DNA from: Cliona cf. orientalis
Lineage: Eukaryota; Porifera; Demospongiae; Clionaida; Clionaidae
Assembly (NCBI GenBank): GCA_963930775.1
Contig: OZ005701.1
Coordinates: 310,001-374,000, forward strand
Direction: 5' to 3'
Length of the DNA stretch: 64,000 nucleotides
Both the position numbers and the translations under genes were made by a program. Below are positions 24,784 to 39,759 of this stretch, piece after piece (position 1 is the stretch's first letter; each line of letters starts with the position of its first letter). Under the pieces are notes generated by a model. The model ran no database searches, was not told the DNA's origin, and saw nothing but the letters and a program-made list of their open reading frames with translations.

Positions 24784-27700
24784 TCACTTAAGCTGTGGAT
24801 GAAGTGACTCTAAATATTTGACGACATGGTGGTGACCTTCGTGACGTGCTTGTTCAAGTGGTGTCATGTTGAGCTGTCCTCTAATGTCAGGAGGACAGTG
24901 AAGTGTTTCTATCATGAATCTGACCACTTCAAGGTGGCCAAGTCTGGCAGCATCACGAAGAGGAGTATTGTTCCTACTGTTAGTACACAGTGGGTCACAG
25001 TGCTGCTCCAAGGTGAGATACTGCACCACAGCTAAGTGTCCACGTTGAGCAGCTAGGTGCAGTGGAGTTACTTTCTCATAGTCGCAGTGTGATGGATCAC
25101 AGTGCTGATCCTCAACTAAGAATCTCACCACATGTAGATGTCCCATTTGAGCGGCAGCGTGAACAGCAATTCTACCACCACATTTAGTAGGTCTCCCGTG
25201 ATGCTCACCAGTTGCCTCAATGCTGGGGTCACAGTTCAACTCGGTGATAAAGTATTTGATGATTTTTAACTGTCCATACAAAGCCGCAACATGTAGTGGA
25301 GTTGTTCCATCTGTACCTCGGCAACTAACTACGTCCTTGAGTGGGAGGTGCTGACTCATGGCATTCACTAGGTAGACAACTACATCCATGTTATCATCAT
25401 CAGCACAAGCTTTATGAAGCGGAGTATCACCACGTTCAGTCTGACACATTGGGTCCACCTGTTGCTCAGCAATCAGATACCGTACTAGTTCAAGATGGTT
25501 GTGTCGTGCTGCAGTATGAAGTGGTGTAAATCCCGCATTCTTGCTACCGGTAGAACATGGACTTGCTGGATTATGTCGTTGGTCTTCGATAAGATATTTC
25601 AGCACAGCTAGCTGTCCTCCCTTGGCTGCACAATAAATGGCATTCCTTCCACTTTTATCTTCCTGTAGTGGGTTTAATCGTTTCTCCTCAGTCAGATATT
25701 TGACAGCTTTCAAGTCTCCTGTTTGTGATGCTCGACGTAGTTTATGTGCACTGCTGGAGTCGTGTCCCATTCCCATGTCTGGAAACTCTACATCTGGCCT
25801 GTGCAGTGTATCCTAGAGTGGGAATACATGTACACAAAGGGAAGGAATAGCAGTCAGTGAGATCAGTTGGTAGAGGGATAAAAGGCTGTTGACAACAAAG
25901 CTTAATGAGAAGAAAATTAAGTGCCATACACGTACTAATGCAATTTCCCACTTATGATATTGTAGTAAGGGGTCATTAATCACTTAGGAAATTGCTAAAG
26001 GTCGTCAATAAGCCTACATGTACGCAACATTATTATGACTGTATATCTCTGTGACTAGAGACTGACCTCAGAGGCCACTGTCACTGCTGCTGAAGTGCCA
26101 GTATACCTACTCCTCTCCGCAGTCAGGGCTGAGTCAGTTCTGATGGAGGGTGCATCCCTCAAAGTCAGTCCAGCAGCCATGGACGCCAACTCAGTGACAC
26201 CTGGGGGAAATGAAACACCAACATGAGGGTTGTAGTGGACTAGCCTATTGTTGGCTCACTGTCAGCATAGTCTGTGTATCCCTCATCATCAGAAGCACAG
26301 GGATCCTCTACCTCCTGCTGGCCAGACAGCCGGCCGGGACAGACAAAGGACAAAGGTCAACCAGTCATCCAATGATGTCATCAGCCATAGCTTACCTTAT
26401 TCTGTTGTCTAGTGAACTGGTAGTCCCCACAGGAGAGCTCCACAACACCTAGAGCAGCTAGTGATGCTTCTTGTTCAGGAGAGAGAGGAAAGATGTCTTG
26501 ACGGAGAGAGAGGGGGAGTTGAAAGGTCAGCTTTATGCTGCCATACATAATATCGCACAGTTTGAGATTAACATCTGATGATATCCCCAGAGCTCTTCGC
26601 AACCTCACTTTGAACTCGTTTAAATGACTTAGAGTGCAATTATCGAATGAATCGTCCAGCGTCACAAAGATATTTGAAAAGCCATCTTCACTCATTTCAC
26701 CAACTTTCATCGATCCCTCAATGACACAGCACTGAGCGTACTCTTCAAAGTCCTTCTTATAAGCCTCCAAGTTATCTTTGTCCTTTGGGGTGCCGAATTC
26801 TTCTGTAATATGCTCCAACATCTGATAATTAAAGAAGGAGCAGTAGTCCTTGACAACAGACATGACATCATCCACAGTTTCTGAAGTCTCTAGTTTTGGC
26901 AGCTGGTGTCGCAGTGGAGGTTTACCAGTGTCCTTGAAGGTTGGTTTTACAAAGCCCAAGCACACCAAATGACTGACTAGTTCTGAAACTGATACTTTTT
27001 CATCTCTTAAAGATTTTCTGGTTGCTGTGAAAAGTTTCTGAAACTTGTATATCATCTCTTGTGATTTGGAGCTGACTCTCTCATAGCGCCGCTGTTTCTG
27101 TTCTGGACTCAAAGCGATAGAGGGAGAGATGGGGGAGGAGGGAGCTCTGCCTAGTTCAGCTGTGTCTGGAGTACCTCCCTCAGCACCTGAGAGCAAGACA
27201 CAACCTCAAATCAACCCAATGTTGAAGAAGAAGCTACTCACCTTTGGACTCATTCAAACTGCTTTCAGTAGCACTTGCCTCCATTGGTTCAGGTAGTTTA
27301 TCTTTTACTGTGCAGAGAGAGCCAATCATAGAACTCATTTTACACCTGAATATGAAGAGGCATACCTGGGTGATCTGCTGCCAATTTTTTAAACTCTGAT
27401 TTGTTGACCAAAGCCACTGCCTTCAGGAATGTCCTCCATGATGGCTCACCAAACTTTTCCGTGTTGTAGTTCTCATTTATCCACTCTAGCAAGGCACTGT
27501 TCCAACAGCCAGTGCTATCACTGGGGTTGTCCCTTCTAATTTCAGCAATTTTGGATGGTTTAAGTCCAAGAAATCCAGCAATTGTAGACCACTGGGCAGA
27601 GAGCGAGTTGCTTTCAATAATCAGCATGTTCCAGTCACTCTCCTCTGTGAGATCAGTTGGAAATATCAGATTGCACACACAAAACAACACCTCATGCAAT

Positions 27701-28570
27701 ACACAGCTATACATACCAAAATAAGTGTTGTCAACTTCAGAAAGAATCTTTTCGATTTCTGTAAATTGGATAAAATTAATTATCCATCATAGCTAGCTGA
27801 TATCAGAGTTAATTTACCATGATCGAGAGGTCCAGGGTTGAGTTCCACGTCTCCAGACATGATCAGCAGTCGACGTATGACAAAATGGGACGGTCCAATC
27901 AGGAGTGACCTAAACCACGCCCACCCCGTCCCATAGCACAGGACCACTTCACACACGACGCAAACAACAGGCTCGTTGGTGACCTTTGACCTTCCCCTCC
28001 CCCTCCTTGGTCTAGCATTGTCTGGTTCTATGATACACAGCATGTACGTTATATGAATCTCGGTAGTTGGCCAGTATCTCTCTAGAAACAGCCACAGGTC
28101 AAGAATGAGTTCCCAGTACAGTCCTAACATCGCCACTCCGTCACACACCGCATCCGACTCCACAAACTCAGTCCAAAGTTCCTGGCAAATCTGAGCAGCT
28201 TCCCCACACAAAGCCATCGGCAAAGAGACGAAGCAATAATAGAGCACATCTGACAGCCCCAACGCCTTCCAAAGCTTCTTCCCGACTTTCCAACACAAAA
28301 CTACCGCAAAGAGACGAACCAGATCAGCACGGCATGCCTTCTCTTGAACGACCGCCATTGCTTGGAGTGAATCACGTGATGCAGGGAGCAGACGAGAAGG
28401 AGCAGTAGCACCCATACACTACACACATCCCCCTCGCTCATCTGCCTCTTGTAGTGACGGCTGGACAACCTCCTAATTGCAAGGACCCCGCTGATCCGGC
28501 GACGATCATACTTGTCAGGGAGAAGATCGGCGCGAGCCTGGGAAACGTCGAGATCAACTCCATCCATCAT
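24784..28570 (-). CDS. 2A-linked membrane leader / death domain / ankyrin protein, tandem copy A (frameshifted exon 1)
   Basis: Eight exons: 28570-27818, 27758-27717, 27644-27366, 27307-27242, 27186-26396, 26314-26260, 26200-26067, 25812-24784. Exon 1 encodes the hydrophobic leader and ends just past a 2A-like motif (core 27828-27854). Exon 3 is a death domain (LGL, CW, SWRTFLKA landmarks). Exon 5 is an unnamed helical module (DYCSFFNYQMLEHI). The last exon holds about nine ankyrin repeats (TPLHTAARHNHLELVRYL and similar). Relative to copy C, one base is missing at about 28305 (ACCGC for ACCGGC), so the MMDG frame stops after 89 codons. Exon 1 sums to 753 bases where 754 are needed. An ATG at 28415 is in frame with the 2A motif and could still give a leader. 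The 3' end converges on RAB3IP 295 bp away. Confidence 0.8.
27828..27854 (-). other. 2A-like ribosome-skipping motif, copy A
   Basis: The codons spell GDVELNPGP, which fits the consensus D-(V/I)-E-x-N-P-G|P for co-translational ribosome skipping between the last Gly and Pro. The preceding residues (HFVIRRLLIMS) are of the hydrophobic/basic type usual upstream of 2A. The motif lies four codons before the exon 1 donor, between the leader and the death domain. The reading frame is open from ATG 28415 but not from the homologous MMDG start. Confidence 0.85.
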
Positions 28571-29373
28571 CGGAGCACTGGTGACGGGACCTGCACTACA
28601 ACAACCAACAAAGTGGCGGATGTTTATCACACGCGCCCGAGTACGGTAGTACCTTTTCTAGTCGAGTTGACTGCAGATCAGTCGTGAAATAATAAAAGGA
28701 TATGGTTGATCCAACGGGAAAACGAGAGAGAATTTCACAGAGACGTCGATTATACTTGATACTGGGAGACGAAAATTAGTACCAATTTGCTTCGCTGGCA
28801 AGGGGGGCGTAACCTGGATTCCGCGATCGATCCGAGAGCGCGCGATCACGGGGGCACTTCCCCAAAAGGGTGGGGCTCGTTTTCTGTGCGGCGCTGGCCT
28901 ACATAAGGTACGGGGTCGATCAACGTATAAGTGCACTTGCTGGGACGTCGAACATCTACCTATGATCTACCTCAGATGCGGTGCTCCCCCACTAAATCAA
29001 TAGCGCTGAGTTTGAAAATTGCAACAATAGGATCAAGTGGCAAGAACGGCACCGCGAAAATTTTCAACCATGAAAGATACCAGTGACCTAAAACCCTGTC
29101 ACAATGGCACGCGAAAATTTGGGTGCCGTTTATGCCACTTGACCCCAACAAGATCCTCTAAAAACCTTCACGAAAGCCTATACTAGTAAATTAATTAGTG
29201 AACTATTAGCCAAAGGTCAAGCTTGTCCTACCTCCTCTGCCGGTCACCAGTCTATACTGGAAAATGTTCATTCCCATTTCCCATGACGCAGTCCCTGTGT
29301 CAGTTCTGCAGCAAGGTTCTTGAGTTGGAGATAGTTAAAAATTATCGGATCTGGCAATTATTTTAATTTGCAG
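28571..29373. other. Upstream region of copy A and duplication spacer
   Basis: About 370 bases next to the start (to about 28940) are closely repeated upstream of copies B and C, so they probably contain the shared promoter. A small inverted-repeat element occupies 29030-29146. The stretch at about 29250-29330 resembles 34020-34125 upstream of copy B, marking part of the duplicated unit. Confidence 0.5.
29030..29146. mobile_element. Small inverted-repeat element (GGATCAAGTGGCA family)
   Basis: The ends GGATCAAGTGGCA and TGCCACTTGACCCC are inverted repeats bounding about 117 bp. A second member with the same ends and internal sequence (GTCACAATGGCACGCGAAAA / TTTTCGTGTGCTATTGTGAC) lies inverted at 42983-43103. 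It is non-autonomous and non-coding. Confidence 0.65.
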
Positions 29374-29600
29374 ATTGTTGCGGCTTTTAATTTCTATAAT
29401 CATGTGCATTGGACACATTCAGAAGGGAATCATGAGATTAGATGGTGAGTGGCAAAGAAAGTCCGCTCTGTAGATGTGTCTGTGTGTACCATTATGTTTT
29501 TTTTATTGTTTCCATAGCAATGAGCTGTACTAGCGTGTATCTCGGTTAAGAGCGATGATGTCACTCTCGTTTAAACCTACACTTTCCTGAAGAAGACTAA
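29374..29600 (+). pseudogene. RAB3IP: Decayed copy of the last two RAB3IP exons
   Basis: Segments 29374-29444 and 29518-29600 match RAB3IP exons 9 and 10 at 24270-24336 and 24404-24489, including the acceptor, the donor GGTGAGTGG and the terminal GAAGAAGACTAA. The first has four inserted bases after TTCTAT. The second has lost a base near its start, has TGG changed to TAG, and has lost a CT pair. Upstream exons are absent. It sits in the same position relative to copy B as the real gene does to copy A, so it was carried along when the unit duplicated. Confidence 0.85.
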
Positions 29601-30047
29601 TCAACTAGTAATTTTTGTCTCCCTCTCTCTCTCCCCCTCCCCTCTTCTCTAGATCTCTCTTTCTCATCTCAAGATAATTATTGACAGCATGGGTAAAACA
29701 TTGGTGTGTATCAACATTAATTTTTGTGGTATGTTTCAAATTTTAATGAATAATGCAAAACAAAATTAATTAATCTCAGTCACAATGAACAACAAATGTT
29801 ACACAAAACAATAAAACTATATATTAATTATAACAAAACTTACACACACACAAAAAAGAGCACAAACTACTGACTGAGAGGGTATCACATGATCTTGCTT
29901 ATTCACTTAAGCTGTGGACGAAGTGACTCTAAATATTTGACGACATGGTGGTGACCCTCTCTACGTGCTCGTTCAAGTGGTGTCACGTTGAGCTGTCCTC
30001 TAACATCAGGAGGACAGTGGAGTGTCTCTATCATGAATCTGACCACT

Positions 30048-33000
30048 TCAAGGTGGCCATTCCTGGTCTTCGATAAAATACTTCAGCACAGCTAGCTGTC
30101 CTCCCCAAGCTGAATAGAAAAGGGCGTTCCTTCCATCTTTATCTTCCTGTAGTGGGTTTAATCGTTTCTCCTCAGTCAGATATTTGACAGCTTTCAAGTC
30201 TCCTGTTTGTGATGCTAGACGTAGTTCATGTGCACTGCTGGAGTCATGTCCCATTCCCATGTCTGGAAACTCTACATCTGGCCTGTGCAATAATACATCC
30301 TGGAATGGGAATACACAAACATGTGAACGGGTCAGAAGTAGTAACTTGGTAAGGGTTGTTAATCGCTTAGTGAATTGTAAAGGTCGTCAATAACATTACA
30401 TGTATTATAGTGCATTCTTATGACTTTACACAAAAGGGATCTCGTTATGTACAGAGATCCTATGAGAACCTAGAAAATTTCGAGAAATGAAAAAAAATCA
30501 AAGTATCAAGCGAGATTTGAACCTGCTACATGCATTCTTTTTGGTACACAAGAGCCCCAACCACTATACCACCACTGTTGTCGCTGTTACCAATCATTAT
30601 TTTATCCCTTTCATAGACAAACCCTAGAGACTAATCCTGTTACCATTGGCAACCCATCCCAAAATTCCCCCGCCGCAGCCCCTCCCGTATAATATTATAC
30701 ATTATACATTATACACGCACGTGATTGCATCATAACCACATGCCAATAATGATCGCTGTACATAAAGATTTCGACACAACCTCTCTGTGACTAGAGACTG
30801 ACCTCAGAGGCAACTGTCACTGCTGCTGAAGTGCCAGTATACCTACTCCTCTCAGCAGTCAGGGCTGAGTCAGTGCTGATGGAGGGTGCATCCCTCAAAG
30901 TCAGTCCAGTGGCCATGGACGCCAACTCAGTGACACCTGGGGGAAATGAAACACCAACATGAGGGTTGTAGCGGACTAGCCTATTGTTGGCTCACTGTCA
31001 GCATAGTCTGTGTATCCATCATCATCAGAAGCACAGGGATCCTCTACCTCCTGCTGGTCAGACAGCCGGCCGGGACAGACAAAGGATAAAGGTCAACCAG
31101 TCATCCAATGATGTCATTAGCCATAGCTTACCTTATTCTGTTGTCTAGTGAACTGGTAGTCCCCACAGGAGAGCTCCACAACACCTAGAGCAGCTAGTGA
31201 TGCTTCCTGTTTAGGAGAGAGAGGAAAGATGTCTTGACGGAGAGAGAGGGGGAGTTGAAAGGTCAGCTTTACGCTGCCAAGGTTGATGTAGCACAGTCTG
31301 AGATCGACATCTGATGATATGTTGAGAGCCTTTCGTATGTCAGTAATGAATACATTCAGGTACCTTAAAGTGCAATTATCAAATGAATCGTCCAATGTCA
31401 CAAACATATTTGAAAAGCCTTCTTCGCTCATTTCGCCAACTTTCATCGATCTCTCAATGACACAGCACTGAGCGTACTCTTCAAAGTCCTTCTTATAAGC
31501 TGCCAAGTTATCTTTGTCTTTTGGGGTGCCAAACTCTTCAATAATATGAGCCACGATGTGGTAATTAAAGAATGAGCAGTAGTCCTTGACGACAGACATG
31601 ACATCATCCACATGTTGTATATTTGCTAGTCCTGGTAGTTGGCGTCGCAATGGACTTTGACCTGCGTCCTTGTAAATCGGTTTAATCGACCCCAAGCACT
31701 CCAAATGACGAACCAGTTCCGTGACGGACACCTTTTCATCCCGGAGAGATCTTCTGGTAGCCGTGTAGAGCTTTTGAAATTTGTAAGTCATTTCCTCTGA
31801 CTTAGGGCTGACTTTCTCATAGAGCTTCTCTTTCACTGTGGGACTCAAATAGTCAGAGCTCGAGGGAGAGAGGGGGGAGGAGGGAGCTCTGCCTAGTTCA
31901 GCTGTGTCTGGAGTACCTCCCTCAGCACCTGAAACATGAGATAGCATCAAATTAATCACGAAAAAAATTGAATATATACGCTCACCTTTTGACTGTGTGT
32001 CTCTGACTGGAGTAGCACTGACCTCCATTTGCTGAGAATGGTGTTTTTCGGAGGATTCTACACAAATATATAATATCAAGTATAATATCTAGCAGCAGAT
32101 ACTAGTTGCTAAATTACCTTGAACCAAGTGTCCAGAAGCGAGATCTTTGAATCGTAGTTTGTCTACCTTAGCGACAGCAGCTAGTAGGCTCCTCCAAGAC
32201 GGCTCACCAAACTTCTTTGTGTTATAGTTTTGTTTGATCCAGTGCTTGAGGGCTTCACTCCAGCAGTGGTAGTTGTCACCAGAGCCCTTTTTCCACTCCC
32301 ACTTTTTCCACTCCCACTTTCCACTGAATTTCCCACTATACGATATTATTGTAACAGAGAGAGTGTACCTTGGTGTTGTGCTGCTAAATTGTTGAACATC
32401 AGCTTGTCTTCCTTAGCCACTGCTTTGAGGAGACTCCTCCAAGATGGCAACTCGTACTTCTTTGTGTTGTAGTTTTGTTTGATCCAGTGTTTGAGGGCTT
32501 CACTCCAGCAGTGGTAGTTGTCACCAGAGCCCTTGATGTTGTCGGTCACTTCAAAGGAGAGTCCGAGGTAGATGCTCAACTGCTCCCACTTGGCAGCCAG
32601 TGACTTGCACTCTATCACCACAATATTCCAGTCATCCACTCCTGTGCAGTGTGATAGTCGTAGCAATAAATTAGTACCGTACAGATGTTTGAAGGGTGAA
32701 ATTTTCACAGATAAGCGAGTTTTACTAGTTAGTTTTTGCAGTTGGTCGATTATCCATGAAAATTGGACCCCTCAAAATTCTATATTATGGTATTAATTAG
32801 GGACATACCTAAGACAGTATTGTCAATAGTTTCAAGTATTTCTTCAACCGTCTTATGATCTACACAAAAGATGGAGTTGATCATGAATATTATTATCCAT
32901 TGTGCATACACAGACACAGCTCCTTACCAGTGAGAGGTCCAGGGTTGAGTTCCACGTCTCCAGACATGATCAGCAGTCGATGTATGACAAAATGGGACGG

Positions 33001-33591
33001 TCCAATCAGGAATGACCTAAACCACACCCACCCCGTCCCATAGCACAGGACCACTTCACACACGATACAAATGACAGGCTCCTTGGTGACCTTTGACCAC
33101 CCCCTCCCCCTCCTTGGTCTAGCATTGTCCGGCTCTATGATACACAGCATGTACGTTATATGAATCTCGGTAGTCGGCCAGTATCTCTCAAGAAACAGCC
33201 ACAGGTCCAGAATGAGTTCCCAGTACAGTCCTAACATCGCCACTCCGTCACACACCGCATCCGACTCCACAAACTCATTCCAAAGTTCCTGGCAAATCTG
33301 AGCAGCTTCCCTACACAAAGCCATCGGCAAAGAGACAAACCAGATTAGCACGGCATGCCTTCTCTTGAACGACTGCCATTGCTTGGAGTGAATCACGTGA
33401 TGCAGGGAGCAGACGAGAAGGAGCAGTAGCACCCATACACTACACACGTCCCCCTCGCTCATCTGCCTCTTGTAGTGACGGCTGGACAACCTCCTAATTG
33501 CAAGGACCCCGCTGATCCGGCGACGATCATACTTGTCAGGGAGAAGATCGGCACGAGCCTGGGAAACGTCGAGATCAACTCCATCCATCAT
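30048..33591 (-). CDS. 2A-linked membrane leader / death domain protein with collapsed ankyrin exon, tandem copy B
   Basis: Exons in phase: 33591-32928, 32859-32809, 32641-32369, 32057-31986, 31928-31132, 31050-30996, 30936-30803, 30299-30048; about 765 residues. The leader is open from MMDG through the 2A motif (core 32935-32961) but lacks 28 codons present in A and C. The death domain (WNIVVIECKSL, LGLSFEVTDN, WIKQNYNTKKY) and helical module (DYCSFFNYHIVAHI) are intact. The ankyrin exon has lost about 640 bases between GGTGGCCA and GGTCTTCGATAAAAT. The join shifts the frame and stops after E-D-Q-E-W-P-P, leaving little more than one repeat. Remnants of the last ankyrin repeat and 3' end continue to about 29900. 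It may be a shortened functional protein or a pseudogene. Confidence 0.75.
30501..30577 (-). mobile_element. tRNA-derived (SINE-like) fragment
   Basis: On the minus strand GGTGGTATAGTGGTTGGGGC resembles a tRNA D-arm (A box) and GGTTCAAATCTC resembles a T-loop (B box) at tRNA-like spacing. I cannot fold a clean acceptor stem, so a tRNA-derived SINE head or tRNA pseudogene is more likely than a working tRNA. It lies in copy B between the ankyrin exon and the exon before it. Confidence 0.45.
32118..32287 (-). pseudogene. Partial second death-domain exon in copy B
   Basis: On the minus strand this segment encodes the C-terminal part of a death domain (DNYHCWSEALKHWIKQNYNT, then PSWRSLLAAVAK) and ends at a phase-1 donor CAAG|GTAATT exactly like the real exon 3. 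The 5' half is missing and is replaced by repeated CCACTCCCACTTT sequence and a piece of the TATAGCGGGAAA-type element. The only nearby AG would give an out-of-frame exon. It is therefore a relic of an extra death-domain exon. Confidence 0.65.
32935..32961 (-). other. 2A-like ribosome-skipping motif, copy B
   Basis: GDVELNPGP is encoded in frame after HFVIHRLLIMS and three codons before the exon 1 donor. Skipping would release a leader of about 218 residues and a downstream protein starting Pro-Leu-Thr-Gly. Confidence 0.88.
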
Positions 33592-34130
33592 CGGAGCACT
33601 GGTGATGGGACCTGCACTAGTGTACAACAAGCAACAAAATGGCGGATGTTTATCACACGCGCCTGAGTACGGTAGTACCTTTTCTAGTCGAGTTGACTGC
33701 AGATCAGTCGTGAAATAATAAAAGGATATGGTTGATCCAACGGGAAAACGAGAGAGAATTTTACAGAGACGTCGATTACACTTGATACTGGGAGACGAAA
33801 ATTAACACCAATTTGCTTCGCTGGCACAGCACCGCTGGTAAGCGCAAGGGGGTGTACCTGGAGTCAGTGGACAAAAAGATTACGGAGTTTGCATATTATT
33901 ACAAAAAAGGGTGGGGCTCGTTTCAGTGCGGCGCTGCGCCAATGGTAAGGTACGGGATCGATCAACTTATAAGTGCTATTAATTATTGCGCACTCGTCAC
34001 ATCTGCAGGCCTCCCTTTGGAAAATGTATTTCATCCCCATTCCCCATTAATCTCGCAAGACAGACCGCTCCCACTCTTTCCACAGTCCCCGTGCCAGTTC
34101 TGCAGCAAAGTTCTTGAGGAGCTGGAGATA
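33592..34130. promoter_or_regulatory. Upstream region of copy B
   Basis: The first 370 bases match the 5' flanks of copies A and C (for example AAAGGATATGGTTGATCCAA and ACTGATCTGCAGTCAACTCG on the opposite strand), so any shared promoter lies here. No TATA box is obvious. The remainder to 34130 resembles the spacer at 29200-29330. Confidence 0.45.
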
Positions 34131-34596
34131 TATAGACGGGTTGCCTTAATATGATTAGCATGGCAAGGTCATAAATTAGAAATATCAGTACCCTCAAGAC
34201 ATGTCGTTATGGCAATGATTTTTTTTTAGATAATGCTATTGACCCATGTAATCATCACACTGAAGTTTGAGACTTGTCTGATCTATTGCTGATTTTATAA
34301 AAATCTTAGAAGTGAGCAATTTTCCCATATGTTTGTATTGCGGTAGGGCACATTTTGCCCTACTGCCATACAAACATATGGAAAAATTGCTCACTTCTAG
34401 GATTTTTATAAAATCAGCAATAGATCAGACAAGTCTCAAAGTTGGTGTGATGATTACATGGGTCAATAGCATTACCTTAAAAAACATTCATTGCCATAGC
34501 AACAAGCCTTGACGGTATTGATTTCCTAATCATGGCCGCATGTTCATGTGGCTTGAACTTTCATGTTATGAATCACATTAAGGCAACCCGTCTATA
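34131..34596. mobile_element. 466-bp hairpin (foldback) element
   Basis: The left end TATAGACGGGTTGCCTTAAT and the right end ATTAAGGCAACCCGTCTATA are perfect inverted repeats. The similarity continues inward (GAGACTTGTCTGATCTATTG against its complement, then CATATGTTTGTAT...) to a palindromic centre at GTAGGGCA...TGCCCTAC, so nearly the whole element can fold on itself. The right arm carries about 35 extra bases. A TA target duplication is possible. It abuts the orphan parvin exons. Confidence 0.8.
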
Positions 34597-34599
34597 GTG

Positions 34600-35299
34600 A
34601 TCAATGATTTGGAGACACAGTTTCAGACTGGAGTCAACATGGTGCTGATGATGGGTCTCCTTGAGGGATACTACATACCTCACTACCTCTGGCACTACTC
34701 ACCCAAAAACTTCGAGGAAAGGGTACGTCAGTTGGGGGACTTGGGTGTGTGTGTGTGGATGGGGGGGGAGGATGGGAAACTTAGTGGATAAAAGAACTAG
34801 TTTTAGCCTGAATACCATGGTGCTCTCTCTCACCTGTGTAGCTGGACAATGTGAAGCTGGCTTTCAAACTGATGGAGGATGCCGGGATACCTCAGGAGAG
34901 GGCCAAGCCTGAAGGTACGTACCTACATAGGGAGATATATTACCATAATTATTATAGCGGGAAACATTCAAGGGAGAAATTTTGACTGATTAGTAGAAAG
35001 TGAGCTAAATCATGTATGGGTTGCCCAAATAATATTATTGTGAAGAAAACTTTCATGGGTGGCTTCAAACTATGAAATTCGTAAAGATTTTCTCCCTCGA
35101 AAATTTCCCGCTATGCAGTACGTATACGTACATGACTCATGCATTACATCACACTGGCTGCCATTTCTCTCTGCCTGCAGACATTGTCCACAAGGACCTG
35201 AAGAGCACTCTGAGAGTACTCTACTCCACATTTTGGCAAGTACAAGTCACATTTCCAACAGCAGCCACACCCACAAGCCAAGGAAATTCAGCTGTGTAA
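34600..35299 (+). CDS. PARV: Parvin C-terminal fragment (second calponin-homology domain), 5' end missing
   Basis: Parvins link integrin-linked kinase to actin at adhesions through two CH domains. Three exons (to 34722, 34842-34914, 35181-35299) join in phase and encode DLETQFQTGVNMVLMMGLLE, YYIPHYLWHYSPKNFEER, LDNVKLAFKLMEDAGIP and KDLKSTLRVLYSTFW, matching the end of the parvin CH2 domain (human LDTQFADGVYLVLLMGLLE..., DLKSTLRVLYNLF). A stop follows 18 residues later. No first CH domain or upstream parvin exon is visible before it; the hairpin element starts four bases away. It is probably a truncated relic stranded by the local duplications, although the surviving exons are open. Confidence 0.78.
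34946..35121. mobile_element. Small inverted-repeat element (TATAGCGGGAAA family)
   Basis: Left end ATTATAGCGGGAAACATTC and right end TTTCCCGCTATGCAGTA are inverted repeats in the last parvin intron. It is related to the elements at 23946 and 38228. Confidence 0.5.
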
Positions 35300-35458
35300 C
35301 TACCATATTATTATATTGATAATGTTTTTTAATAATATTATTGTTTTAGTCTTTAGCTTTCCAAGCATACAAAATTTTATTATTATATAATGTCATAGCC
35401 AATCAAAAATAATGTCATGTAATTGATGCGATAGAAAGGTGAAAAAAAGGCAAGGTAA

Positions 35459-38400
35459 TTAGGACATAATTGATTCTAGATATTTGACGACATGGTGGTG
35501 ACCTTGGCTACGTGCTTGTTCAAGTGGTGTCCTGTTGAGCCCTCCTATGATGTCAGTAGGACAGTGGAGTGTTTCTATCATGAATCTGACCACTTCAACT
35601 TGGCCACAACTGGCTGCATTATGAAGAGGAGTGTTGTTCCTACTGTCAGTACACAGTGGGTCACAGTGCTGCTTCAAGGTGAGATACTGCACCACAGCTA
35701 AGTATCCACATTGAGCAGCTAGGTGCAGTGGAGTTGCTTTCTGATAGTCGCAGTGTGATGGATCACAGTGCTGATCCTCAGTTAAGAACTTCACCACATG
35801 TAGATGGCCATTTTGAGCACCACTATGAAGGGCAATTCTACCACCACATTTAGTAGGTCTCCCGTGATGCTCACCAGTCTGAACAACACTGGGGTCACAG
35901 TTAAATTCGTTGATAAAGTATTTGATGATTTTCAACTGTCCATACAAAGCAGCACTGTGTAGTGGAGTTTGTCCATCTGTACCTCGGCAATTAGCTACAT
36001 CCTTGAGTGGGAGGTGCTGACTCATGGCATTCACTAGGTAGACAACTGCATCCATGTTATTATCATCAGCACAAGCTTTATGTAGCGGAGTATCACCACC
36101 TTCAGTCTGACACATTGGGTCTACCTGTTGCTCGGTAATCAGATACTGTACTAGTTCAAAATGGCTGTATCGTGCTGCCACATGAAGCGGTGTCCATCCA
36201 CTAGCACCTGCACTTGCTGGATTATGTCTTTGGTCTTCGATAAAATATTTCAGCACAGCTAGCTGTCCTCCCCAAGCAGCGTGGTGAATAGCGTTTATTC
36301 CCCGTTCATCTTCCTGTAGTGGGTTTAATCGTTTCATCTCAGTCAGATATTTGACAACTTTCAAGTCTCCTTTTTTGGATGCTAGACGTAGTTCATGTGC
36401 ACTGCTGGAGTCATGTCCCATTCCCATGTCTGGAAACTCTACATCTGGCCTGTGTAGTGTATCCTAGAGTGGAAATACATGTACACAAAGGGGAAGGAAT
36501 AGCAGTCAGTGAGATCAGTTGGTAGAGGGATACAGGGTTGTTGACAACAAAGCTTAATGAGAATAAATTGACTAAAAATTAAGTACCATACAAGTACTAA
36601 AGGCAATTTCCCATAGAACAAGCACCATATGCATAATAATTCTGCATAATTCTTGTGACTAAATAACATAGTGCATGAGTTGAGTGTGGCCCACCTCAGT
36701 GGCCACTGTGCCAGTGTGTCTACTCCTCCCCAGTCCAGAGTCAGTGATGATGACAGAGGGTTTGTCCTGCAAAGTCAGTCCAGCGGCCATGGACGCCAAC
36801 TCAGTGACACCTGGGGGAAATGAAACACCAACATGAGGGTTGTAGTGGACTAGCCTATTGTTGACTCACTGTCAGCATAGTCTGTGTATCCCTCATCATC
36901 AGAAGCACAGGGATCCTCTACCTCCTGCTGGCCAGACAGCCGGCCGGGACAGACAAAGGACAAAGGTCAACCAGTCATCTAATGATGTCATTAGCCATAG
37001 CTTACCTTATTCTGTTGTCTAGTGAACTGGTAGTCCCCACAGGAGAGCTCCACAACACCTAGAGCAGCTAGTGATGCTTCTTGTTCAGGAGAGAGAGGAA
37101 AGATGTCTTGACGGAGAGAGAGGGGGAGTTGAAAGGTCAGCTTTACGCTGCCAAGGTTGATGTAGCACAGCCTGAGATCGACATCTGATGATATGTTGAG
37201 AGCCTTTCGTACGTCAGCGATGAAGACGTTGAGGTGACTTAGAGTGCAATTGTCGAACGAATCGTCCAGTGTCACAAACATATTTGAAAAGCCTTCTTCG
37301 CTCATTTCGCCAACTTTCATCGATCCCTCAATGACACAGCACTGAGCGTACTCTTCAAAGTCCTTCTTATAAGCTGCCAAGTTGTCTTTGTCTTTTGGGG
37401 TACCAAATTCTTCTATAATATGTGCAATCATCTGGTAATTAAAGAAGGAGCAGTAGTCCTTGACGACAGACATCACATCCTCCACTGATTTAGCGCTAGC
37501 CAGTCCGGGAAATTGGTGTCGTAATGGATTTGATCCCAAATCTTTGTAGGTTTGTTTAATTGATCCTAAGCATTCCAAATTCTTTACAAGTTCTGAGACG
37601 GTCACTTTCTTTTCCCACAGAGATTTCCTCACTGATGAGAAAAGCTTCTGAAATTTGTAGGTCATTTCCTGTGATTTAGAGCTGACTATCTCGTAACGTC
37701 GCTGTTTCTCTTCAGGACTCAAATTGACAGAGGGTGGAACTCGAGGGAGAGATGGGGGAGATGGAGCTCTGCCTGGTTTAGCTGCATCTGGAGTATCTCC
37801 CTCTGCACCAGCATGCACATTAACAAGACCTTAAAAATTTGCAGTGATGAATTTAGCTATGTTCACCTTTGACTTCTTTTGGGCTCCTTGACTTTCTCCT
37901 TGCTTTGGATAACAGTTTAAAGACCCTTCCCAGTGACCTAGACCTGCCACTTCCTCTCCTCCTTGCAGGGTGAACTTGGCTCCGTGGAGAAGTTGTAAGA
38001 GACTCTGAGGGTGTTCTGCATAATTCAGTGGTATCTGGAGAACCGAATCCCTCAGCGCCTATGAAATAAGACACAATCTCAAATCAATACTATAATAATA
38101 TACAATCACCTAGCAGCTCACCTTTAGACTTGTGTAAACTACTTTCAGTGGCACCAGGCTCTATTTGTTCAGCGCCATCAGATTTTACTAAAATCAATAA
38201 TAGTAAACTCTAAACTCATTGGTAGAGTACTGTATAGCGGGAAAAATTTGAGGGAAAAAACCTTCATGAATTTCGTAATTTTACAACCACCCAAACAAGT
38301 TTTATCCATGAAATTTTAGGCATGCCACACTCATTATGCAATCAGTTTACCATTCCACGAAAGTTTTATCTGTGAAATGCTTCCTTCCTACCGATCCATG

Positions 38401-39759
38401 AAAATTTTCTCCCTCAAAAATTTCCCACTATACGATATTATTGTAACAGAGAGAGTGTACCTTGGTGTTGTGCTGCTAAATTGTTGAACATCAGCTTGTC
38501 TTCCTTAGCCACTGCTTTGAGGAGACTCCTCCAAGATGGCAACTCGTACTTCTTTGTGTTGTAGTTTTGTTTGATCCAGTGTTTGAGGGCTTCACTCCAG
38601 CAGTGGTAGTTGTCACCAGAGCCCTTGGTGTTGTCAGTCACTTCAAAGGAGAGTCCGAGGTAGATGCTCAACTGCTCCCACTTGGCAGCCAGTGACTTGC
38701 ACTCTATCACCACAATATTCCAGTCATCCACTCCTGTGCAGTGTGATAGTCGTAGCAATAAGATTACTGTACAAAGGGGAATTTTGAAGGGTTGAATTAT
38801 CGCAGATAGGCAATTTTGATTTTCAGTTGGTCAATTATCCGTGAAAATTAGACCCCTTGAAATTTCCTGCTATACAGTATTAATCAGGGACATACCTAAG
38901 ACAGTGTCATCAATAGTTTCAAGTATTTCTTCAACCGTCTTATGATCTACAAAGATGGAGTTGATCATGAATATTATTATCCATGCTGCATCCACAGACA
39001 CAGCTCCTTACCAGTGAGAGGTCCAGGGTTGAGTTCCACGTCTCCAGACATGATCAGCAGTCGACGTATGACAAAATGGGACGGTCCAATCAGGAGTGAC
39101 CTAAACCACGCCCACCCCGTCCCATAGCACAGAACCACTTCACATACGACACAAACGACAGGCTCCTTGGTGACCTTTGACCTCCTCCTCCTCCTTGGTC
39201 TAGCATTGTCCGGCTCTATGATACACAGCATGTACGTTATATGAATCTCGGTATTCGGCCAGTATCTCTCTAGAAACAGCCACAGGTCAAGAATGAGTTC
39301 CCAGTACAGTCCTAACATCGCCACTCCGTCACACACCGCATCCGACTCCACAAACTCATTCCAAAGTTTCCCAGGAATCTGACCAATTTCCCCACACAAA
39401 GCCATCGGCAAAGAGACGAAGCAATAATAGAGCACATCCGACAGCCCCAACACCTTCCAAAGCTTCTTCCCGACTTTCCAACACAAAACTACCGGCAAAG
39501 AGACGAACCAGATCAGCACGGCATGCCTTCTCTTGAACGACTGCCATTGCTTGGAGTGAATCACGTGATGCAGGGAGCAGACGAGAAGGAGCAGTAGCAC
39601 CCATACACTACACACGTCCCCCTCGCTCATCTGCCTCTTGTAGTGACGGCTGGACAACCTCCTAATTGCAAGGACCCCGCTGATCCGGCGACGATCATAC
39701 TTGTCAGGGAGAAGATCGGCGCGAGCCTGGGAAACGTCGAGATCAACTCCATCCATCAT
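35459..39759 (-). CDS. 2A-linked membrane leader / death domain / ankyrin protein, tandem copy C (intact)
   Basis: Nine exons in phase: 39759-39012, 38946-38896, 38733-38461, 38187-38122, 38058-37867, 37802-37006, 36924-36870, 36810-36695, 36463-35459; 1100 residues. Residues 1-246 are a leader with a hydrophobic helix at 49-66 and further hydrophobic stretches near 79-93, 143-166, 172-181 and 200-212. The 2A motif (GDVELNPG|P) puts the predicted break between 246 and 247. A death domain, a basic Arg/Ser-rich insert unique to this copy (exon 5), the unnamed helical module (DYCSFFNYQMIAHI, EEFGTPKDKD) and about nine ankyrin repeats follow. There is no NACHT or LRR, so it is not a standard NLR. 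It is the best reference for the family. The frame is also open upstream of MMDG, but that sequence is not conserved in A. Confidence 0.88.
38228..38437. mobile_element. Small inverted-repeat element in copy C
   Basis: TACTGTATAGCGGGAAA and TTTCCCACTATACGATA bound about 210 bp in the intron after the death-domain exon. Copy B keeps only the right end of the same insertion (about 32325-32345), beside its relic death-domain exon. Confidence 0.6.
39019..39045 (-). other. 2A-like ribosome-skipping motif, copy C
   Basis: Codons 239-247 of copy C spell GDVELNPGP after HFVIRRLLIMS. All eight core positions fit the 2A consensus. It separates the multi-hydrophobic leader from the death-domain/ankyrin part and lies three codons before the exon 1 donor. 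Confidence 0.9.

Follow-up and report, generated by a model that had tools for sequence, protein, structure and literature searches.

2A (StopGo) peptides are already known from NLR proteins and from non-LTR elements (PMC11512398). In cellular genes StopGo is described as being used 'only rarely', and chimeric 2A sequences are often inactive (PMC12846837). Two described systems are closest to the genes considered below. Roulston et al. 2016 (PMC4981915) measured about 80% recoding in reticulocyte lysate for a 26-residue 2A signal sequence of an S. purpuratus NLR; a reporter that was otherwise cytoplasmic went mainly to the Golgi once recoding was blocked, and R11A as well as changes to L13 and L14 lowered activity. 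Among the proteins of Amphimedon, 357 carry a TRADD-N domain, a lineage-specific expansion in which mostly one to three death-like domains come first and the commonest C-termini are ankyrin repeats or SH3-LRR (Kaur et al. 2021, PMC8195603). The stretch analysed here, 64,000 nucleotides of the sponge Cliona cf. orientalis (C13:310001-374000, hereafter the window), holds three tandem gene copies in which a 2A core closes the first exon ahead of a death-like, TRADD-N-like and ankyrin protein. The genome comprises 216.8 Mb in 149 contigs, labelled C1, C3, C13 etc.; L-numbers denote single loci. Judged from the sequence and by analogy, one bond at the 2A that ends exon 1 is probably skipped by the ribosome, and the signalling protein would thereby come off separately from the hydrophobic leader ahead of it.

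With the sea-urchin NLR 2A (PMC4981915) these genes share the SGDVExNPGP core, the upstream LL, the position closing an N-terminal hydrophobic leader and the attachment to an immune-type death-domain protein. In layout they resemble the 2A-signal-sequence genes but they are not NLRs.

The 2A core and its leader

On the minus strand of the window the core GDVELNPGP begins at 39045 (copy C), 32961 (copy B) and 27854 (copy A), in the 3' terminal part of exon 1, and around it each copy encodes (H)FVI(R/H)RLLIMSGDVELNPGP. The original prediction, made from the letters of the stretch, had placed a consensus-fitting 2A motif at the same position in each copy, and this is borne out. Most of the tandem repeat blocks share 82-99% identity with the reference copy, the lowest values being 65, 74 and 78%. 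The copies, being duplicates, are not three independent observations; loci on C18, C3, C1 and C4 and the NLR loci are independent ones. Throughout the genome the codon pattern D(V/I..)ExNPGP occurs at 152 sites, a total made up of split patterns with 91 and 61 sites, and the reversed pattern at none, so that the 2A core is present beyond chance.

When the leader was used as query, 42 pieces were recovered at 36 loci, and the 2A core is present in 36 of 36. At 24 of these loci, on C13, C1, C18, C6 and C3, the long leader is present, ten of those on C18 displaying 57-64% identity across nearly the whole query. At the other 12 the similarity is confined to the final 33-43 residues, and one short leader of the C18 type counts 40 residues, Met and last Pro included. 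For the six intact C13/C1 leaders, the pooled proportions of synonymous and nonsynonymous differences (pS and pN) are 0.063 and 0.027, a ratio of 0.43, and indels are in frame; the leader thus evolves like coding sequence. Between the C13 and C18 groups, pN is 0 and pS 0.19 in the core (about 8 synonymous sites), and pS is 0.63 and pN 0.41 in the leader middle. Retention of the core merely because the copies are recent duplicates holds true among A, B and C; for the family it is ruled out by the 36 of 36 loci and the C13/C18 divergence. At leader residues 1-79 the same comparison gives a pS of 0.096 and a pN of 0.035. Such low values suggest that sequence has been exchanged between loci, by gene conversion or through exons copied recently from a cluster on one contig to a cluster on another.

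Five 19-residue windows of the copy C leader reach a hydropathy of at least 1.6, the first (VCSVWVLLLLLVCSLHHVI) with 2.34, in agreement with the several hydrophobic stretches predicted for it. Leading into the core the window genes read RLLIMSGDVE, in which L13, L14, S10 and G9 (sea-urchin numbering) are kept and position 11 is Met, not Arg.

The length and constraint of the leader are also what would be expected of a two-product gene, in which both proteins freed by skipping would be functional, the long leader being a membrane-active effector beyond an address tag. Consistent with this, the long leader is constrained at the above ratio, is long beside the 40-residue leader of its own family and the 26-residue one of the sea urchin, and in its C18 version carries a net charge of +18 and an amphipathic stretch with a hydrophobic moment of 0.63. 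The corresponding stretch of copy C is weaker (moment 0.46, net charge +7), the leader has no Pfam match and no usable fold prediction, and the short leaders at other loci argue that a 2A does not need a long one. An effector function for the leader is considered unlikely.

Gene structure and the downstream protein

The exon joins of copy C were read by eye from the genomic sequence; the gene model covers exons 1-6 (to 37006), with the ankyrin frame separate, and all coordinates below lie on the minus strand. Leader and 2A occupy 39019-39759 (247 codons from the ATG at 39759), the core lying at 39019-39045 and the predicted downstream product starting from the Pro codon at 39021-39019. Two codons, Leu-Thr, follow the core Pro before a phase-1 donor (CTCACTG/GTAAGG), exon 1 extending to 39012. 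Spliced by eye, the next exons give DHKTVEEILETIDDTVLGVDDWNIVVIE, with which the death-like domain starts. With each exon entered in phase 1, an open protein results that passes from leader and 2A into PLTDHKTVEEILETIDDTVLGVDDWNIVVIE and on through the death-like domain, linkers, a helical part and the TRADD-N-like domain. The exons concerned are a linker (exon 2, 38896-38946, phase 1 at both ends), the death-like domain (exon 3, 38461-38733), a further linker (exon 4, 38122-38187, phase 1), a basic linker (exon 5, 37867-38058, phase 1) and the helical part with the TRADD-N-like domain (exon 6, 37006-37802, the latter domain at about 37233-37048). Ankyrin repeats (Ank_2, E 3.2e-51) at 35459-36427 run to the stop codon. 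That the motif lies directly before the death domain, as originally proposed, therefore holds for copy C by way of phase-1 splicing, which joins the 2A to the death-like domain. The Pro-Leu-Thr-Gly start foreseen for the downstream product has to be replaced; after splicing, Pro-Leu-Thr-Asp is predicted for copy C.

Copy B starts from the same ATG as copy C, with a leader shortened in frame (leader and 2A 32935-33591, 219 codons; core 32935-32961), and its helical and TRADD-N-like domain lies at 31120-31932 (80% identity). In copy A a 1-nucleotide deletion at about 28307 puts the family's shared ATG out of frame with the 2A (27828-27854). Another ATG, at 28415, shares the frame of the 2A and opens a leader and 2A of 196 residues (27828-28415); the helical and TRADD-N-like domain follows at 26384-27190. 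The leader range of about 190-250 residues given earlier thus stands as to length (196, 219 and 247 residues for A, B and C), but copy A, with its frameshifted leader, is not equivalent to copies B and C.

By itself the death-like domain of copy C has no Pfam match. It is 58% identical to the domain of locus L039, which passes the Pfam Death cut-off (26.4 bits against 22.6). The TRADD-like_N family (PF20694) is matched over its cut-off in copy A, at 26435-26623, and below it in copy C (E 0.0019); at E <= 0.1 it is matched in 8 of 10 aligned relatives of this middle domain. Genome-wide, 24 matches to PF20694 are over the cut-off, copy A included, and 20 of them follow a 2A at a distance of up to 9 kb. 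A structural model of the middle domain, with a predicted local distance difference test score (pLDDT) of 72.3, shows, at moderate confidence, a run of helices after which strands and helices alternate. A Foldseek search with this model returned no match at E <= 0.001; weak ferredoxin-like matches are compatible with TRADD-N, no more. The description as a death-domain/ankyrin protein is correct as to both parts, and death-like + TRADD-N + ankyrin is the better name.

The middle domain of copy C (36994-37818) was further used as query. At least 140 genome matches were obtained (140 of 286 candidates scored) and were merged into 135 loci, each 2A being assigned to its nearest locus only. Downstream of 52 of the 152 2A sites a middle domain is found within 9 kb on the same strand, and the mirrored opposite-strand control gives none. 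Of the 63 loci with at least 42% identity, 48 are preceded by a 2A of their own at no more than 9 kb.

Other carriers of the 2A exon

The exon-1 donor was scored at 29 loci, a 30th (L069) being left out of the count. In 28 of them the best donor past NPGP is a phase-1 site, and L062, the one that differs, has a phase-1 GT as well. Counted over distinct loci the figure is 22 of 23 (p = 5e-10 against an expectation of 1/3). A donor of constant phase 1 makes exon 1 a module that could be swapped without a frame break.

Such an exon also precedes NACHT genes. Using 103 of the best 104 NACHT matches of the genome, a NACHT domain was found within 9 kb downstream of 11 2A sites, with none in the control, and two further 2A loci with NACHT (L044, E 4e-22; L060, E 4.8e-20) bring the number to at least 13. 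Locus L061 on C10, one of the 11, comprises a 2A, a death-like domain below cut-off and NACHT (E 7.6e-24). None of the best 104 genome matches lies in the window, and no NACHT was detected in the four stretches of copy C that were scanned. The 2A exon is not restricted to death-domain/ankyrin genes lacking NACHT, since NACHT genes of the same genome carry an exon of this kind. A third architecture, with a Roc/COR-like GTPase, may be present at three 2A loci on C3. It rests on two scanned loci with Pfam scores below cut-off (Roc in L056, COR-A in L057) and on L058, which is alike to them by eye. A downstream class could be assigned to about half of the 152 sites. Most of the carriers classifiable as host genes belong to the TRADD-N-like family, with no NACHT detected in the copy scanned.

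At two places on C10 (760125/760495 and 773803/774007) 2A cores form close same-strand pairs, 370 and 204 bases apart. The spacing of 204 is a multiple of three and that of 370 is not; the pairs could be double-2A leaders.

Mobile elements of the genome also carry the core. Using 77 of 150 matches, Helitron_like_N lies within 6 kb downstream of at least 12 of the 152 2A sites, as at L052, C14:1726074 and C9:3682827, where the core is GDIEVNPGP. In L052 (C1:22420000-22428000, minus strand) one open frame contains 217 residues ahead of the core, the 2A itself, HTH matches and Helitron_like_N (E 7.1e-27). The same-strand 2A pair at C1:18011878/18012826 is part of a duplicated Helitron-type start. 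Among the matches listed in one literature search Helitrons are not mentioned, and a 2A N-terminal to Helitron replication proteins may be new. From APE-type non-LTR retrotransposons 2A was reportedly described by Odon et al. in 2013. An N-terminal 2A core of the same kind is found here in L050 (C1:21872500-21880500, minus strand), a non-LTR retrotransposon in which the 2A precedes a PHD finger, an endonuclease and a reverse transcriptase (RVT_1, E 3.1e-42). Unlike such elements, the window genes are spliced, have phase-1 exons and show no element domains in the parts scanned. A retrotransposon fragment as their identity is ruled out by the spliced exons and the host domains.

The occurrence of 2A cores near Helitron replication proteins and in L050 would also be accounted for if the motif were an inherited passenger of an exon derived from a mobile element, its skipping lost and a single fused protein made; the variable residues 11 and 14 ahead of the core are in keeping with this. 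A passenger should decay, whereas the core is unchanged at all 36 leader loci despite the divergent leader middle, and at locus L063 loss of the 2A is accompanied by leader decay (2.3 kb read). This reading of an inert passenger is regarded as very unlikely.

Proposed function and comparison with described systems

The reading best supported is one of dual targeting, and it is held with slightly better than even confidence. Each gene would produce one mRNA whose first exon encodes a hydrophobic leader ending in a 2A (StopGo) peptide. Many ribosomes would fail to form the Gly-Pro bond, so freeing the leader with NPG at its end, and continued translation would yield a free cytosolic death-like + TRADD-N + ankyrin protein with Pro as its first residue. 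In rounds without skipping the protein would stay tethered to the leader and be destined for a membrane. The exon itself would serve as a dual-targeting module, a phase-1 first exon common to several immune-type families of the genome and supplying each with a cytosolic and a membrane-tethered adaptor. Skipping is inferred because the sea-urchin relative is known to be active (PMC4981915); its share, the membrane targeting and the immune role of the products are likewise put forward as proposals. What the sequence itself shows is the motif, its frame, the splice phase, the retention throughout the family and the coding constraint on the leader.

Several observations weigh against this. Membrane association is inferred from hydropathy, its sole basis, since the fold prediction of the leader (pLDDT 38.7) is unusable. 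The C18 and C3 long leaders that were read have Arg or Gln at the L14 position, and together with the Met at position 11 this means that skipping activity may vary. In some constructs an upstream signal sequence can inhibit 2A and lead to more fusion product (PMC2978324), so the tethered form could make up the larger share. The low pS of the leader N-terminus suggests that the similarity there is not from selection alone. Long leaders are broken in copy A, by its deletion, and at C13:249271-250020, by an in-frame TAG; in both, the 2A core and the middle domain are still open. Only 4 of the 72 more distant middle-domain loci (below 42% identity) have their own 2A, and 15 of the 63 close relatives are without one found within 9 kb. 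Three of these 15 were read. At C13:551926 the leader is decayed, LLIMSG surviving as a frameshifted remnant, and at C18:7125539 and C18:7119693 no remnant of a 2A leader was detected in the 2.5-2.7 kb fetched.

Another 5' end is needed at these 15 loci. The main transcripts might more generally start downstream of exon 1 or be spliced around it, the 2A exon being a rare isoform. Such an arrangement is difficult to match with the coding constraint on the leader, the nearly constant phase-1 donor and the 2A retained at 48 of the 63 loci, and it is judged quite improbable.

If the dual-targeting reading holds, it may extend beyond the TRADD-N-like genes. As a phase-1, exon-shuffled module, the 2A leader would be a general translational switch for the death-fold immune repertoire of the genome, acting in dozens to more than 100 genes of several architectures (death-like + TRADD-N + ankyrin, NLRs and perhaps Roc/COR-like GTPases), each made in cytosolic and membrane-tethered form, with the long-leader type also freeing a membrane-active effector peptide. 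This wider proposal is tentative and falls short of even probability. A single genome with 52 2A sites before TRADD-N-like relatives and at least 13 before NACHT stands out against the rare cellular use described for StopGo (PMC12846837). If active, recoding would be a routine means of placing immune signalling proteins in an early-branching animal; the leaders, by their natural variation, offer a ready test series.

Compared with the sea-urchin NLR 2A (PMC4981915), the leaders differ in length, 26 residues in those tested there against 196-247 in the window copies and 40 in the short C18 type. Activity was measured for the sea-urchin sequence; for the window copies it is predicted. The likeness to the Amphimedon TRADD-N proteins of the NCOA6 clade is one of architecture, with a death-like domain, TRADD-N and often ankyrin repeats; in the main text of that study the term '2A-like' is absent, and its passages on membranes and cleavage contain no 2A leader (PMC8195603). 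Among the literature matches listed, which do not cover the survey of Rao et al. 2025 and so leave an earlier mention possible, no report was found of 2A in TRADD-N/ankyrin genes, in sponges or in a shared phase-1 exon. While 2A in NLRs and non-LTR elements is known, what appears new here is the 2A family without NACHT, the leaders of about 200-250 residues and the shared phase-1 exon.

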